Shown here: positions 10,601 through 40,234 of the stretch, one piece after another
Layout of the letters: each line of letters starts with the position of its first letter
Position numbering within the stretch: position 1 is the stretch's first letter
From: a virus
Virus record (IMG/VR): IMGVR_UViG_3300005264_000874
Coordinates: 1-40,234 of that record
Strand: one strand, 5' to 3'
Length of the DNA: 40,234 nt
Made by a program: the position numbers and the translations under genes
Notes under the pieces: generated by a model
What the model was told of the DNA's origin: nothing
Seen by the model: the letters and a program-made list of their open reading frames with translations, nothing else
Databases searched by the model: none

Positions 10601-10726
10601 ATGAACAATATAATAAAAAGAGTGGGGAGAGATACTTACACAGTGAAGTATAAAAAAAATACTAGACTTTTTACACAAGAAGAAGCGGTAGAATTAGAAA
10701 AAGAACTAAACGGGCTTGGTATATAA
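10601..10726 (+). CDS. Hypothetical 41-aa protein
   Basis: A small charged protein (MNNIIKRVGRDTYTVKYKK...) with no TGA codon. It is the only protein gene between promoter P3 and a terminator-like hairpin that overlaps its stop codon. The P1 promoter likewise starts with a roughly 42-aa gene, but the sequences are not clearly related. Confidence 0.6.
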   Translation: MNNIIKRVGRDTYTVKYKKNTRLFTQEEAVELEKELNGLGI

Positions 10727-10737
10727 GCCCTTTTCTT
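10712..10737 (+). terminator. Terminator-like hairpin overlapping the stop codon
   Basis: GGGCTT (10712-10717) pairs with AAGCCC (10725-10730), loop GGTATAT, followed by TTTTCTT. It would terminate or attenuate transcripts from P3 just before the structured RNA. Confidence 0.6.
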
Positions 10738-10763
10738 GGCGGGGGTCTCATAATTAATTTTTA

Positions 10764-10916
10764 TTATTCTCTAGCCTCCACTAGAGAATAAACATTATCC
10801 ATTTTCTCCTGCTTTTCATAGGTATACAGAAAATAAACTCCTGTATCCTCTCTAGTGTGTCTGTATATCCGCAGGAGCTTAGTTAACATATTAGAGAGTG
10901 GGGGAAAGTGGATAAT
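10764..10916 (+). ncRNA. Highly structured RNA with crossing helices
   Basis: A perfect 11-bp hairpin (10764-10774/10781-10791, loop CCTCCA) is followed by a domain closed by a continuous 16-bp helix (10794-10809/10901-10916, two G-U pairs). Inside, 10821-10829 pairs with 10861-10870 (one bulge), CTCCTG 10838-10843 with CAGGAG 10872-10877, and CTCTCTA 10848-10854 with TAGAGAG 10892-10898. The last two helices start in the loop of the first and pair beyond it, so they form pseudoknots or alternative states. No protein frame crosses it. A switch, ribozyme or trans-acting RNA are all possible. Confidence 0.7.
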
Positions 10917-11251: not shown

Positions 11252-12439
11252 ATGTTTAAACTCCAAAAAGTAAAAACAAGTAAATTGAAATTAAATAAAT
11301 GACAAATTGAATGAGTTCCAAAGAATCCTCGTTTCTTAAAAGATGAGAGATTTGAAAAGCTTAAAAAATCAATACAAGAAGCTCCTGAGATGTTAGAACT
11401 TAGAGAAGTGATAGCATATGATAATAATTGAGAGTTAGTCGTTATATGAGGAAATATGAGATTGAGGGCTTTGAGGGACTTAAAAATAAAAGAAGTAATG
11501 ACAAAAGTGTTAGACACAGATACAACAGCAGACAAGCTAAGAGAATATGTTATAAAGGATAATGTGGAATTTTGAAATAATGATATGGATATATTGGCGA
11601 ATGAGTGGGATAGTGAGGAGTTGGAGGAGTGGGGAATGGAGATAGATTTTGAGGATATAGGAGAAGAGGAGGAAGAAAAAGAATGAGAAGATGAAGTGCC
11701 AGAAGTACAAGAAAATATTATAGTTGAGAAATGAGATATATTTCAGTTATGAGAGCATAGGCTATTATGTTGAGATAGTGCGAAAATTGAAGAGGTAGAG
11801 AAGTTAATGGATTGAGAGATTATGGATACTTGTTATACAGACCCCCCATATTGAATATCATATAAAGGAAAATGACAAACAGGAATAACCAAATGAAATA
11901 ATTTTTGAGAAATACTTTGAGATTGAAATGAGCAAGTTGCAATAGATGTTTATAATTTAATAGCAACACTAAATATAAAAAATATATACTATTGGTGAGC
12001 AAATTTTTATACAAACATACTTAATAACTGAAATAGTTGGATAATTTGGAATAAAGAAACAGTATGAGAAAATTATTCTGATTGTGAATTATGTTATACA
12101 AATAAACCTTGAAGATTAAAAATGGTTACTCATCAGTGGCATTGAATGATAAAAGCAAGTGAGCACTGACAAGCAAGAGTACACCCCACCCAAAAACCAG
12201 TATTTTTAGCTGAATATTGTATATGATTAGATAAAGATGTAAAAAATGTATTAGATTTATTTTGATGAAGTTGAAGTACATTAATTGCAAGTGAAAAAAC
12301 AAATCGTAAATGTTATATGATGGAATTAGATGAAAAATATATACAAGTAATATTAAAGAGATATTATAATTATACAAACGGAGAAAAAGAAATTAAATGT
12401 TTAAATAGAGATTTAGACTTGTCAAGTATATTAAAATAA
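11252..12439 (+). CDS. ParB-domain/DNA methyltransferase fusion
   Basis: The 395-aa protein has an N-terminal ParB/Srx-like nuclease-type domain (P-K-N-P-R, then V-V-I-G-G-N-M-R-L-R-A-L) and an acidic linker. A C-terminal amino-methyltransferase domain follows. Its catalytic motif is T-D-P-P-Y-G (residues 196-201), and the SAM-binding motif L-F-G-G-S-G-S-T lies at about 336-343. Motif order (DPPY before FGGSGST) marks the beta class, giving N6-adenine or N4-cytosine methylation. The glycines of both motifs are TGA. Such fusions are common in phages just upstream of terminase, as here, and may protect DNA or mark packaging sites. Confidence 0.9.
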
Positions 12440-17171: not shown

Positions 17172-18410
17172 ATGATAAGGGATTTTCTTAGTTCATTTTT
17201 TGTTAAAAAGCAAGGTAATATTGATAAAAGATTTGTAAATTCTATGTCAAATAATGGATATTCTTTTATTTGACAGAATTTGAATGACTGTTGAAAAGTA
17301 GTTATTTCTTTGAATACATACTATGAAATACAAGAATATAATACAGAAGCTCAAGCATATAAGAATAAAATTGTCAATTGGATAGGTAAAGACTGAATAT
17401 ACTTACAGAAAGAGAATTGAGAAGTATTAGAAGATCTTAAAACAACACAAAAAGTACAAGATATATTTTCTATTCCTACATTTAGACTATTCAAAGAGCA
17501 GTATTTTACTCATAACTTTTGTTCTGGAGATATTTATTTATATCCACAAAGAAATTATCTTGATGAAATACAGGTGCAAGTAGTAGATAGTAGAATAATG
17601 GAAAAAGAAATAGATAAAAAATGAAATATAACAGCATATAAACAAAGAAGTAAATGAGGAGTAACAGCTATAAGTCCTGATAGAATATATAATTCTATAG
17701 TAAGATTTAATGCAAGAAGTCCTTACTATGGAGAAAGTCTATATAAAAGTATTATATATGATGCAATGAGCGAAAAAGAAAGTGCAAGAAGAAGTTTCTA
17801 TTTTTTCAAAAATAATGCAATGCCAAATGTGTTATTTATGTTAGACCCTGAAATAGATAAAAAGAATTTTCAAGAAATAGAACAGAGAATAAATGATAAA
17901 TACAAATGAATAGAAAACAGTAGTAAACCTATGATATCAGGAGCAATACAAGACGCTAAGGTTCTACATGTAAACAATAAAGATTTAGATTTAATTAATT
18001 TAAGAGAGTTTTTAATTAAAAAAATGGGTATTGTCTTTCAGATAGATCCTAGATTGATTTGATTTATTAATGATGCGTGAGCATATAATGCTATAGTTGA
18101 AATAAGAAAGGAAGCCAAAGAAACTTTATCTTATTTATCTCAGCAACTAGAAGAGGATATGAATAACTTTTATAGAAAGTTTATAGATACAAAGGCTACT
18201 TTTAGGATAAAGATAAAAACAGAAAGTTTTGACGATAAAACAGAAATAGCAAAAAACCAAAGAAATGATTTAGTCTTATGATTAAAAACATTAAATGAAA
18301 TAAGAACTGAAAGAGGGCTAGAAAACTATAAGGAGGATTTTGCAAACAAGCCGATACTCCAAACTAATTTACAAACTTCGGATAAATTAACATCTGAACA
18401 AAAAATTTAA
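17172..18410 (+). CDS. Portal protein
   Basis: This 412-aa protein fits the HK97/PBSX portal family by length, order and pattern: an internal P-D-R-I-Y-N-S-I-V-R-F, then S-P-Y-Y-G-E-S-L-Y-K-S-I. The F-Q-I-D-P-R-L-I-G-F-I-N-D-A-G segment is typical of the central portal domain. It forms the dodecameric ring through which DNA is packaged. ATG 17172 is chosen; an ATG 4 nt upstream opens only seven codons. TGA gives many of its glycines. Confidence 0.8.
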
Positions 18411-18431
18411 TTAATAATAATAATATATATT

Positions 18432-19658
18432 ATGAAAAAAAATATACAGTTAGAAAAAACTAGTAAGAAAGAGTTGAAAAACTACATAAATGACAATGGT
18501 TTCTTTTTCCATATGGATTGTAATAAAATTACTACTGATGAGGTGGATAGTTTAAAAATAGCAGAAAATAAAATATTAATGGATACAGGAGTGGAAGCTC
18601 CTAAATGAGATAATATAGTTATAATGTCAGGAGTAGCCTCTGTGAACTATAAAGTATGAGAAAAGAATAGAAACGGTTATAAATATGATCCTAAAGCCTG
18701 GAGTGTTGATAATTACAAGAAAAATTCTCTGATATTATGGCAACACGACTGAGAATATGGAGGAATTTGAAATGCTTTGAAATTATGGCACGATAAACAA
18801 GACAATATGAATATATTATTTTTTGTTGACTTAGATACTTTGGATGATAAATCTAGAATACAAGTAGAAAGAGGTTATGTAAAATCAATAAGTACAGGAG
18901 CTATAAGTAAAGAAACTAAATTTGAGGATACAGAAAGCTGAAAGTTATACACAGAAGCAGAAGCAGAAGAGAAATTTGGATATGAAAATGTTTTTATGTC
19001 TTACTTGGGAGTAAATGACAATCTTATTGCTGTTATAACTAATGCGGATTTATTAGAAAATAGTTTAGTTACTATATGAAGTAATTGATGAGCGGTAGCG
19101 ATGAAAGACTGAATTTGAACACATTTAAAAAAGAAAGCAGATGAGTATAAATTAAAATATGAAAAAAATAATACAGAAGAAGAAAAGGAAGAAGAAAAAA
19201 CAGAACAAGAAGAGGATAAAAAAGAAACAGAAGTTGAAGAAAATAAAGATGTTACAGAAAAAGAAGCGGAAGAGTGAAAAGTAGAAAAAGAAGTGGAGGA
19301 AGAAAAAACTGAATGAACTAAAAAAGATGATACAGAAGAAAATGAACCAGATTGAAATAAATCTGATATGGTTGAAAAAACCATAAAAAATAAATTTTCT
19401 AATTTATCAAAAGATTTAGATAAGAATTTTGTTAGTAATGAAAAATTTACAAATGAAATAAAAGATTTGAAAGATAGTCTAAAAAAATATCAAGATAAAC
19501 TTGATGTTATAACTGGAGAAAATGAAGCAATGTGAGAAATAGTAACCTCATTATATTCTAAACTCCAAAACACTATATTTGATTCGGCTTGAACTTATCA
19601 AGAAGAACCAAAGAAAATAGAAAGCGATTTATACAAAAAATTAAAATCGTTAAAGTAA
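18432..19658 (+). CDS. Prohead protease with C-terminal scaffold
   Basis: The N-terminal half of this 408-aa protein matches HK97-type prohead proteases: V-I-M-S-G-V-A-S-V, L-I-L-W-Q-H-D with His105, and V-K-S-I-S-T-G-A with Ser152, the likely catalytic His and Ser. The second half is strongly acidic (Glu/Lys) and coiled-coil, as expected for a fused scaffolding domain. It would guide capsid assembly and then be cleaved out. It sits between portal and capsid genes, the usual place. Confidence 0.85.
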
Positions 19659-37763: not shown

Positions 37764-38321
37764 ATGAAAAAAACATTAAAAAAAATAAACAAAGAATTAT
37801 TTGTAATGGTGGAATGAGAAAAAATTATAATTACAAATGAAAATAAAAATGATTATAATATAAGTTGAAATATTAATAATATAAGGTGAAATATTAGTTA
37901 TATAAATTGAAATGTTAGTAATATATGGTGAGATGTTTATGATATAAATTGAAATGTTAGTAATATAAATTGAGATATTAGTGATATAAGTTGAGATGTT
38001 AGTAATATAAGTTGAGAGATTAGTGATATAAATTGAAATGTTAGTAATATATGGTGAGATGTTAGTTATATAAATTGAAATGTTAGTAATATATGGTGAA
38101 ATGTTTATGATATAAGTTGAGATGTTAGTTATATAAGTTGAAATGTTAGTAATATATGGTGAAATGTTTATGATATAAATTGAAGTGTTAATGATATAAG
38201 TTGAAATGTTAATAATATAAGTTGAGATGTTAGTTATATAAGGTGAAATATAGATGAATGTAAAATAACAAAAGAAGATTTAAAAAATGGGAAAATTGAT
38301 ATTAGTAATTTATTAACTTAA
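37764..38321 (+). CDS. Heptapeptide-repeat (beta-solenoid-like) protein, 185 aa
   Basis: After a 31-residue head, 19 tandem heptads follow (consensus [N/Y/D]-I-[S/N/W/R]-G-[N/D]-[V/I]-[S/Y/N], residues 32-164) and a 21-residue tail. Every repeat glycine is encoded by TGA. The regular I-x-G-x-V pattern suggests a narrow beta-solenoid or beta-roll. Its role could be structural or surface-binding. It is expressed from P5 together with the tRNA-like element. Confidence 0.7.
37857..38255 (+). repeat. 19 tandem copies of a 21-bp unit
   Basis: Copies of about AATATAAGTTGAAATGTTAGT with variable third and fifth positions, always keeping the frame and the TGA codon. Confidence 0.95.
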
Positions 38322-38897: not shown

Positions 38898-38911
38898 AAT
38901 TTATAAATTAT

Positions 38912-38939
38912 TTGCAATTATAAAAAAAATTTATATAAT
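38912..38939 (+). promoter_or_regulatory. TTGCAA-class promoter P6
   Basis: TTGCAA (38912-38917), 16 bp, TATAAT (38934-38939). It shares ATTTGCAATTATAAAA with P8 and P9, which also drive noncoding RNAs. Confidence 0.8.
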
Positions 38940-38945
38940 CCTCTT

Positions 38946-39010
38946 ACGAAATAAAATAATTTTTTGTAAGGCTTTAACAAAAAAAACACACTAACCAGTG
39001 TGTTTTTTTT
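38946..39010 (+). ncRNA. Small RNA of about 65 nt with terminator
   Basis: From P6 to a terminator (AACACACT-AACC-AGTGTGTT and eight Ts, 38985-39010) there is no ORF. A first hairpin CTTACGAAA/TTTTGTAAG (38943-38970, one G-U) begins at the predicted start site. Two-hairpin layout resembles the RNAs from P8 and P9, but its loops are not complementary to each other. Confidence 0.6.
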
Positions 39011-39017
39011 GTCATCA

Positions 39018-39089: not shown

Positions 39090-39119
39090 TTGACAGAAAT
39101 TAAAGCGGCCCCTTATAAT
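39090..39119 (+). promoter_or_regulatory. Sigma70-type promoter P7
   Basis: TTGACA (39090-39095), 18 bp, TATAAT (39114-39119). The GC-rich spacer (AAAGCGGCCCC) and upstream T-rich run distinguish it from the common family. It lies just downstream of the iterons. Confidence 0.75.
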
Positions 39120-39163
39120 ATATAAGTGTTGTTAAGAAATAATAAATCCTTTATATAAATTAA

Positions 39164-39252: not shown

Positions 39253-39280
39253 TTGCAATTATAAAATAATTTTATATAAT
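39253..39280 (+). promoter_or_regulatory. TTGCAA-class promoter P8
   Basis: TTGCAA (39253-39258), 16 bp, TATAAT (39275-39280). The stretch AAAAAAGTTTAAAAAAGATT plus TTGCAATTATAAAA upstream and within it recurs before P9 at 40040-40073. Confidence 0.85.
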
Positions 39281-39286
39281 CATATT

Positions 39287-39414
39287 ACTTGGAAACAAGG
39301 TTGTTACAATCAAATTTTAGAAAAGCAACACCTTTTAAAATTTGATTGTAACAATAAAACATAACTGTTTAGAACTCTTGGATAGGTGTTGTTAAATATC
39401 CAAGAGTTTTTTTT
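39287..39414 (+). ncRNA. Two-hairpin RNA with complementary loops
   Basis: Downstream of P8, a 19-bp or longer perfect hairpin (39301-39319/39336-39354) has GCAACACC (39325-39332) in its loop. A second 12-bp hairpin (39373-39384/39397-39408) with T8 is a terminator and carries GGTGTTGT (39385-39392) in its loop. The loops can form 7 Watson-Crick pairs plus one G-U, an intramolecular or intermolecular kissing interaction. No ORF is present. It ends 10 nt before the winged-helix gene, so it could also control that gene by attenuation. Confidence 0.75.
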
Positions 39415-39424
39415 GCTTAAAAAT

Positions 39425-39919
39425 ATGAAAGACTTTATAGATGAAATACTTTGAGAATTATCACACCTAACACAAAAACAAGTTTACAGGCTATTTTGTT
39501 CTATGAACCAAAGAATAAAGCAATTCTGAGACTTCTGAATGTGAAAGAGGGATGGTATTAGATTTTGATTATCTGAAAGACAGATGCAAAAGTTTATCAA
39601 TCTAATGATTGACTATGGATTTTTAAAAATAAAAAGAAGAGTAAGATCTAATAGAGGTTTCTTATGCAGATTGTTTAGTGCTAGTGAGGAGTTATTAAAA
39701 TATTTTTGAGAGATAAGAAATTTTGTTTTAAAGAAATTTAAATATATAAATCCAAAGGAATATATGTTGGCTAGGTTCCCCGTAATAAGGGACAGGTATT
39801 GAAAACTAGAGTTCAGAGTAAATGGACAAAAATATTTTGTAAATAAGCGATGACGATTCAAGGATAAGATATATTGAGAAATAGAAAATAGAATTATTAA
39901 TCCTTTAGTTTTAATTTAA
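39425..39919 (+). CDS. Winged-helix DNA-binding protein (164 aa)
   Basis: The N-terminal 85 residues have a wHTH-like plan: L-T-Q-K-Q-V-Y-R-L-F, then G-L-S-E-R-Q-M-Q-K-F-I-N-L-M-I-D as recognition region, and G-F-L-K-I-K-R-R-V as wing. The C-terminal half is basic. It lies between two similar small RNAs and beside iterons and palindromes, so it may be a replication initiator or repressor. No specific family is certain. Confidence 0.6.
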
Positions 39920-39932
39920 TCATTAAAACATT

Positions 39933-40020
39933 ATGAGAAATTTAAATAGTTGATAAAAATAATAAAGGTAACATACAAGATTTAGCAGATGAAATAGCTA
40001 AACTAGAAAAGAAATTATAA
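39933..40020 (+). pseudogene. Small ORF apparently split by a +1 frameshift
   Basis: ATG 39933 has the typical leader but stops after seven codons (TAA at 39954). The +1 frame from 39946 to 40020 reads V-D-K-N-N-K-G-N-I-Q-D-L-A-D-E-I-A-K, clearly protein-like. A +1 shift at TTAA would join them. Error, decay or frameshifting cannot be told apart here. Confidence 0.3.
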
Positions 40021-40059
40021 TATTATGAATTATAATTTTTAAAAAAGTTTAAAAAAGAT

Positions 40060-40087
40060 TTGCAATTATAAAATTATTTACTATACT
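40060..40087 (+). promoter_or_regulatory. TTGCAA-class promoter P9
   Basis: TTGCAA (40060-40065), 16 bp, TATACT (40082-40087), with the same upstream element as P8. Confidence 0.8.
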
Positions 40088-40093
40088 AGACAC

Positions 40094-40181
40094 ACACATA
40101 AAAACTCATATTAGTGGTATGAAGTTACTCTACTATTAATATGAGTTTTAGCTTCCTTGCCACTAACAAGAAAGCTTTTTT
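40094..40181 (+). ncRNA. Second two-hairpin RNA, crossing the circular join
   Basis: A perfect 13-bp hairpin (40101-40113/40137-40149) with a 23-nt loop is followed by a terminator-like hairpin AGCTT-c-CTTG/CAAG-a-AAGCT (40150-40176) and T6. The terminator loop CCACTAA (40160-40166) is exactly complementary to TTAGTGG (40111-40117); four of these bases lie in the first loop and three at the top of its stem. The plan matches the RNA at 39287. The right half is also present as bases 1-51. Confidence 0.65.
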
Positions 40182-40234
40182 GTGAGTCTAAGGCTTCGGC
40201 TGGGGTGTTATATTGATTGTTGTAAACAATATAT
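40131..40234. repeat. Terminal direct repeat, right copy
   Basis: This is an exact copy of bases 1-104. It contains the second half of the RNA described at 40094-40181, including its terminator-like hairpin. Confidence 0.95.

Follow-up and report, generated by a model that had tools for sequence, protein, structure and literature searches.

A predicted short RNA, here called RNA1, in the 40,234-nt stretch of viral DNA analysed in this study (the window) is tentatively read as the 5′ leader of the gene at 39425, acting as a putative transcription attenuator that would also release a short RNA; we give this reading a probability of roughly 0.48. A segment in the loop of its first hairpin (K) is complementary to a segment in the loop of its intrinsic terminator (K′), and pairing between K and K′ in the leader looks like real on/off control, with the function itself being putative. 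Gene regulation is almost unexplored in phages of the candidate phyla that use genetic code 25, and a paper on code-25 phages makes no mention of small or noncoding RNAs (PMC10746230). If true, the reading would mean that sequence by itself has revealed a compact RNA switch, one in which a terminator is controlled via its own loop. Each of the elements described here has a different loop pair, and these pairs may determine specificity, which is the role of loops in plasmid copy control.

The genes of the window stay open and long only with genetic code 25, in which TGA encodes glycine. This code is used by Gracilibacteria and Absconditabacteria (PMC10746230), and it points to a member of one of these groups as the host of the virus. 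As the 104-bp ends of the window are identical, the viral genome is complete at ~40.13 kb, with circular permutation or terminal redundancy; RNA2, a sister element of RNA1, is interrupted by the contig break. TerL, portal, capsid, tape measure, DnaB, and Sak were recognised, no tRNA genes were found in the whole window, and no Rfam family matched within it at the gathering threshold. RNA1 is located between the late genes and the early genes, and its features are listed with those of its sister elements in Table 1.

Table 1. Positions of RNA1, its sister elements, and associated features in the window
Feature	Position	Strand	Description
Terminal repeats	1-104 and 40131-40234		104 bp, identical; sequence comparison
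RNA3	38912-39014	+	Same promoter as RNA1; hairpin and terminator
Consensus promoter TTGACA-N18-TATAAT	39090-39133	+	12/12 consensus positions; promoter 39090-39119, predicted start 39126
Shared extended promoter core TTTGCAATTATAAAA	39252-39266	+	Contains the RNA1 -35
RNA1 promoter TTGCAA-N16-TATAAT	39253-39280	+	10/12 consensus positions; -35 TTGCAA from 39253, 16-nt spacer, -10 TATAAT up to 39280
RNA1, predicted short transcript	39287-39414	+	Start ~39287, end in T-run, ~125 nt
Small 5′ hairpin CUUG-GAAA-CAAG	39288-39299	+	Folding
Hairpin 1, loop AAGCAACACC	39300-39355	+	23 consecutive pairs, 10-nt loop, -22.8 kcal/mol
K = AGCAACACCU	39324-39333	+	Hairpin 1 loop segment, complement of terminator loop
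Intrinsic terminator with U-run, loop GGUGUUGUUAAA	39371-39414	+	Hairpin 39371-39410, ~-17.7 kcal/mol; T8 up to 39414
K′ = AGGUGUUGUU	39384-39393	+	Terminator-loop segment, complement of K
ORF, 164 aa, code 25 (TGA = Gly)	39425-39919	+	Starts 10 nt after the U-run
RNA2	40060-40181	+	Same promoter as RNA1; hairpin 40101-40149; terminator 40150-40181, loop CCACUAA
RNA2 K = UUAGUGGUA	40111-40119	+	In upper stem of hairpin
RNA2 K′ = UGCCACUAA	40158-40166	+	Terminator loop region

The initial annotation had placed an RNA at 39287-39414 with an intact promoter, a hairpin of 19 bp or longer, and a terminator hairpin. The coordinates proved correct, and each of these components was recovered, hairpin 1 having 23 consecutive pairs. 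The whole RNA folds at -46.9 kcal/mol (z = -8.4), a value equaled by none of 200 shuffles, with a 15-nt linker between hairpin 1 and the 12- to 14-bp terminator stem. The loops had been said to pair over 8 nt; the complementarity itself holds and its length is 10 bp, made up of nine Watson-Crick pairs and one G-U pair, with the K:K′ duplex at -14.4 kcal/mol. Shuffling the letters of the loops gives p = 1e-4 for strict loops and 4e-4 when the loops are extended by 3 nt. No match to Rfam, including C4 and isrK, was obtained for RNA1 either at the gathering threshold or with the cutoff relaxed to E = 5. The idea of a peptide leader was abandoned, as 39287-39355 contains no ATG and only a 20-codon frame from a TTG.

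The attenuator reading, which had been proposed among others in the initial annotation, draws support from what lies behind the RNA. An intrinsic terminator sits between the RNA1 promoter and an ORF that begins only 10 nt downstream, no promoter-like site was found on the + strand in 39281-40058, and the layout recurs in a related phage, G001. With no usable promoter between terminator and ORF in either phage, expression of the gene from this arrangement therefore needs read-through. The ORF exists only under genetic code 25, and its product was earlier described as a winged-helix protein. That assignment could not be sustained, as the protein has no match in Pfam or PHROGs, relaxed thresholds included, and its single-sequence AlphaFold model is uninformative (pLDDT 42).

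Searches of viral contigs with single proteins (ORF 39425, DnaB, and TerL) returned nothing, apparently because TGA-containing glycine codons were missed; a generic terminase profile returned unrelated phages, and DNA similarity among annotated phages gave only AT-rich promoter-like matches with weak E-values. Relatives were found by a DNA pattern, an in-frame TGA inside the terminase motif. G001, of 46.4 kb, has a TerL ~60% identical to that of the window phage, a capsid protein 70% identical, and a DnaB 41% identical. Its promoter core is present as a single copy on the early-gene strand and is followed by a small 5′ hairpin, a hairpin 1 with loop GUUGUCUAGG, and a terminator with a loop containing AUCUAGACA. 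Complementarity between these loops extends over 8 bp (p = 0.0008-0.005 by shuffling, the RNA having been chosen only by its shared promoter), and the letters that pair are wholly different from those in RNA1. From the end of the terminator it is ~9 nt to the ATG of an 85-aa ORF, the best frame by codon statistics, which is followed by a 236-aa ORF and DnaB; a weak promoter-like site overlapping the terminator would initiate only within the ORF. Covariation in related phages had been named as a check on RNA1, and the differing letters of loops that still pair in G001 represent a compensated change of this kind. The observation is real and is better supported than from RNA1 alone, because the relative keeps the pairing with other letters.

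Within the window, the core TTTGCAATTATAAAA occurs at 38911, 39252, and 40059, in each case on the + strand and all within 1.2 kb. A reversed-pattern control has no match in the window and G001, and RNAs with a hairpin, a terminator, and K/K′ segments lie behind three of the four core promoters in these two phages. One of them is RNA2, in which K and K′ are complementary over 9 bp (p = 0.002 by shuffling, this RNA also being chosen only by its shared promoter). Its hairpin has 19 to 20 bp and a stability of -22.1 kcal/mol, and the terminator adjoins it directly, with a linker of 0 nt. Since K is placed within the upper stem and there is no linker, pairing in RNA2 can work only as an alternative fold. 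The stretch from K to K′, when taken alone, indeed folds into a nested structure of -19.2 kcal/mol that takes in the 5′ arm of the terminator and so forms an antiterminator. As hairpin 1 is more stable and outcompetes it, this antiterminator would need a trigger or help. There is no coding ORF behind RNA2 before position 449, ~400 nt further on, and codon statistics led to the rejection of read-through into a GTG ORF at 52. RNA3 was examined as a further case and lacks loop complementarity as well as a gene right behind it; given that it has the same promoter, it speaks against the attenuator reading, as does the distance from RNA2 to the next coding ORF.

Placed together, these features suggest how the leader might operate. 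RNA polymerase would start at the TTGCAA/TATAAT promoter and make hairpin 1 first, and by default transcription would stop at the terminator, with a stable ~125-nt RNA being let go. K could pair with K′ after K′ leaves the polymerase and before the 3′ arm of the terminator does, and this pairing would compete with terminator closure and set the fraction of read-through into the gene. We infer that its effect would be to lower rather than raise termination. The released short RNA, with K exposed, could in addition act in trans on nascent leaders and thereby provide feedback. The form that the pairing may take differs between the elements: a mutually exclusive antiterminator fold is available in RNA2 and is transient in G001, where folding of the growing chain up to K′ favors the nested K-K′ structure (-14.7 vs -13.3) and the terminator wins once its 3′ arm is made. 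The stability of hairpin 1 in RNA1 (-22.8) means that K and K′ can meet there only as a kissing pseudoknot and not as a nested antiterminator. By our own geometric estimate, a coaxial kiss across the 15-nt linker between the 23-bp and 12- to 14-bp stems would be strained, and it would therefore form only while the terminator is open, or between molecules. A permanent intramolecular kissing fold is doubtful because RNA2 has no linker and holds K inside a stem, so that the standing kissing complex put forward earlier is less well supported than the attenuator, and the same holds for a dimer. The suggestion that the leader senses a ligand cannot be argued.

The most serious alternative, although a distinctly less probable one, is that RNA1 is a free-standing phage small RNA. 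The terminator would then be an ordinary transcript end, the ORF would be read mainly from upstream transcripts, and the loops would kiss or bind other RNAs. RNA3 fits such a role, as does the RNA of L165, an unrelated code-25 phage, in which the same core precedes a single-hairpin terminated RNA (reverse complement of 11527-11620) that runs counter to the flanking terminase genes and is followed by no gene on its own strand. In two host-like code-25 contigs, L159 and L147 (the latter in G004), the core stands in front of structured RNAs of no assigned family with T-runs, the L147 core being one mismatch off and the L159 RNA ending in a strong terminator. As the core also fronts these other RNAs, the promoter is not special to the attenuator. 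The 16-nt promoter core has 12 matches in 353 host-class genomes, none of them with a matching-loop two-hairpin RNA, and the reversed-pattern control has one match in the same genomes. The motif GTGTTGT is rare on the + strand, yet it occurs in the loops of RNA1 (39386), the G001 RNA, and the L165 RNA, which also favors a free-standing RNA; it is found at 39126 as well, and its recurrence possibly reflects a common target or a protein site. What weighs against this alternative is that in the two clearest cases the terminator lies immediately before a start codon with no usable promoter between them, and that a standing intramolecular kiss is sterically implausible in RNA2 and strained in RNA1.

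Another potential target of K is present upstream of RNA1. The transcript predicted to start at 39126 begins with GUGUUGUUAA, in which the K′ sequence is repeated (K″), and the 8-mer GTGTTGTT has only two sites on the + strand of the window, namely this start, which belongs to a promoter with 12/12 consensus positions, and the terminator loop. As a second target of K, K″ is a lead only. It could be speculated that K is similar in role to seqB of the P4 CI RNA and pairs with both K″ and K′, so that transcription would stop early if the short RNA comes from a resident copy, and we regard such P4-like immunity or feedback as unlikely. The P4 CI RNA is processed, its targets are not known to include an intrinsic terminator loop, and P4-type termination is generally not located at one; K″ was moreover recognized only in retrospect, and neither RNA2 nor G001 has it, leaving RNA1 as the only element here with a second target copy (39126, 39384). 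The likeness lies in a same-strand leader with internal complementarity, which in P4 precedes the replication genes and governs premature termination (PMC4825925), and the order K″-K-K′ matches the seqA-CI-seqC order described there.

That an ordinary hairpin and terminator carry loops that match by accident is very unlikely, in agreement with the initial annotation. In blind scans for hairpin and terminator combinations in the window and code-25 relatives, the RNA1 pair ranks first with a score of 22.5, and the top three are the three promoter-linked RNAs (RNA1, RNA2, and the G001 RNA), with all pairs outside these at 16.5 or below. One background pair (among 36 in one scan, besides the other scans) reaches this 16.5, which is near the 17.5 of two of the three promoter-linked cases, and a close homologue fit for a true covariation test is absent; both points favor accident. 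They are set against p ~1e-4 for RNA1, p ~0.001-0.005 for each of two more cases defined by their promoter, and matching that is restricted to cognate loops. When all hairpins were compared with all terminator loops, the cognate scores of the three RNAs were 22.5 (RNA1), 19.5, and 17.5, and cross scores among them were 6-10, or at most 14 once RNA3 was added; the cognate assignment has the top sum among all six permutations of three hairpins and three terminator loops. Each K in these RNAs fits only its own K′, which is the pattern that would be expected if pairing is kept while the letters drift.

Least probable of all is intermolecular kissing into dimers or chains, with loop 1 of one molecule bound to loop 2 of the next as in phi29 pRNA, for the perfect loop-loop complementarity within the same molecule and the stability of its duplex (-14.4 kcal/mol) are offset by the burial of K in a stem of RNA2, by nested two-strand folding that favors RNA1 dimers, as had been suggested earlier, only slightly (-97.0 vs -93.8), and by the lack of linked packaging genes.

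In its logic, and not by homology, the proposed RNA1 attenuator is comparable to the P4 CI RNA, c4 of P1/P7, and IsrK of Gifsy-1. The phage c4 RNA, too, comes from the same strand as the leader downstream of it, to which it is complementary; it targets the region around a ribosome binding site, however, and RNA1 has no match to Rfam C4 up to E = 5. In antisense attenuators of the pT181 type, loop-mediated pairing decides whether the leader terminator forms, but the RNAs come from opposite strands, whereas here K and K′ lie on one strand and in one transcript. In phi29 pRNA, a single molecule has two mutually complementary loops. Both segments are in exposed loops in RNA1 and the G001 RNA; here there is no packaging context, and the segment in RNA2 is buried in a stem. 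IsrK, from a Salmonella prophage, is an operon-leader RNA whose promoter yields both a terminated short RNA and a read-through mRNA, and the short form pairs with the read-through transcript (PMC4825925). The likeness to RNA1 is that of a leader RNA with terminated and, for RNA1, putative read-through forms; IsrK differs in acting on translation of the read-through mRNA and in having no sequence or Rfam match with RNA1, and the description of IsrK followed here mentions no pairing of a hairpin with a terminator loop. The RNA1-type element is, with putative function, a new version of same-strand phage leader RNA control. A broader proposal would be a novel class of regulatory leader in phages of code-25 bacteria. 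Behind an early-region promoter, a 5′ hairpin would read the loop of its own terminator by loop-loop pairing, and the RNA that is let go would work in trans on copies still being made. The loop pairs would drift apart as a kind of specificity code, both from phage to phage and among tandem copies in one phage, and would set immunity or compatibility; this we consider rather unlikely.

So far the loop-pairing element has been seen in two phages only, that of the window and its relative G001, and this narrow spread also weighs against the attenuator reading. No such RNA was found on scanning other code-25 contigs and G233, a metagenome-assembled genome (MAG) contig that is the closest relative in the capsid module, and G233 is without the element because its early module is of another kind. 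This phage-like contig (L194-L196; G233:C55) has the same capsid module and a different early module, and its positions 18400-18760 are a bidirectional intergenic region full of AGTTAAC repeats.

Some additional features of the window were observed. Eighteen tandem 21-bp repeats at 37764-38321 encode a protein of 7-aa units rich in Asn, Ile, and Gly. The intergenic region 10720-10915 contains two large hairpins with very strong structure (z = -5.5) and no Rfam match, which makes it a further candidate for a noncoding RNA or an element resembling an origin. Four more promoters, at 1563, 6661, 10525, and 37588, have in common the context AAAAAAGATTTGACAAAA or one very similar to it, and the promoter at 1563 is followed by a short hairpin with a T-run and then an ATG.
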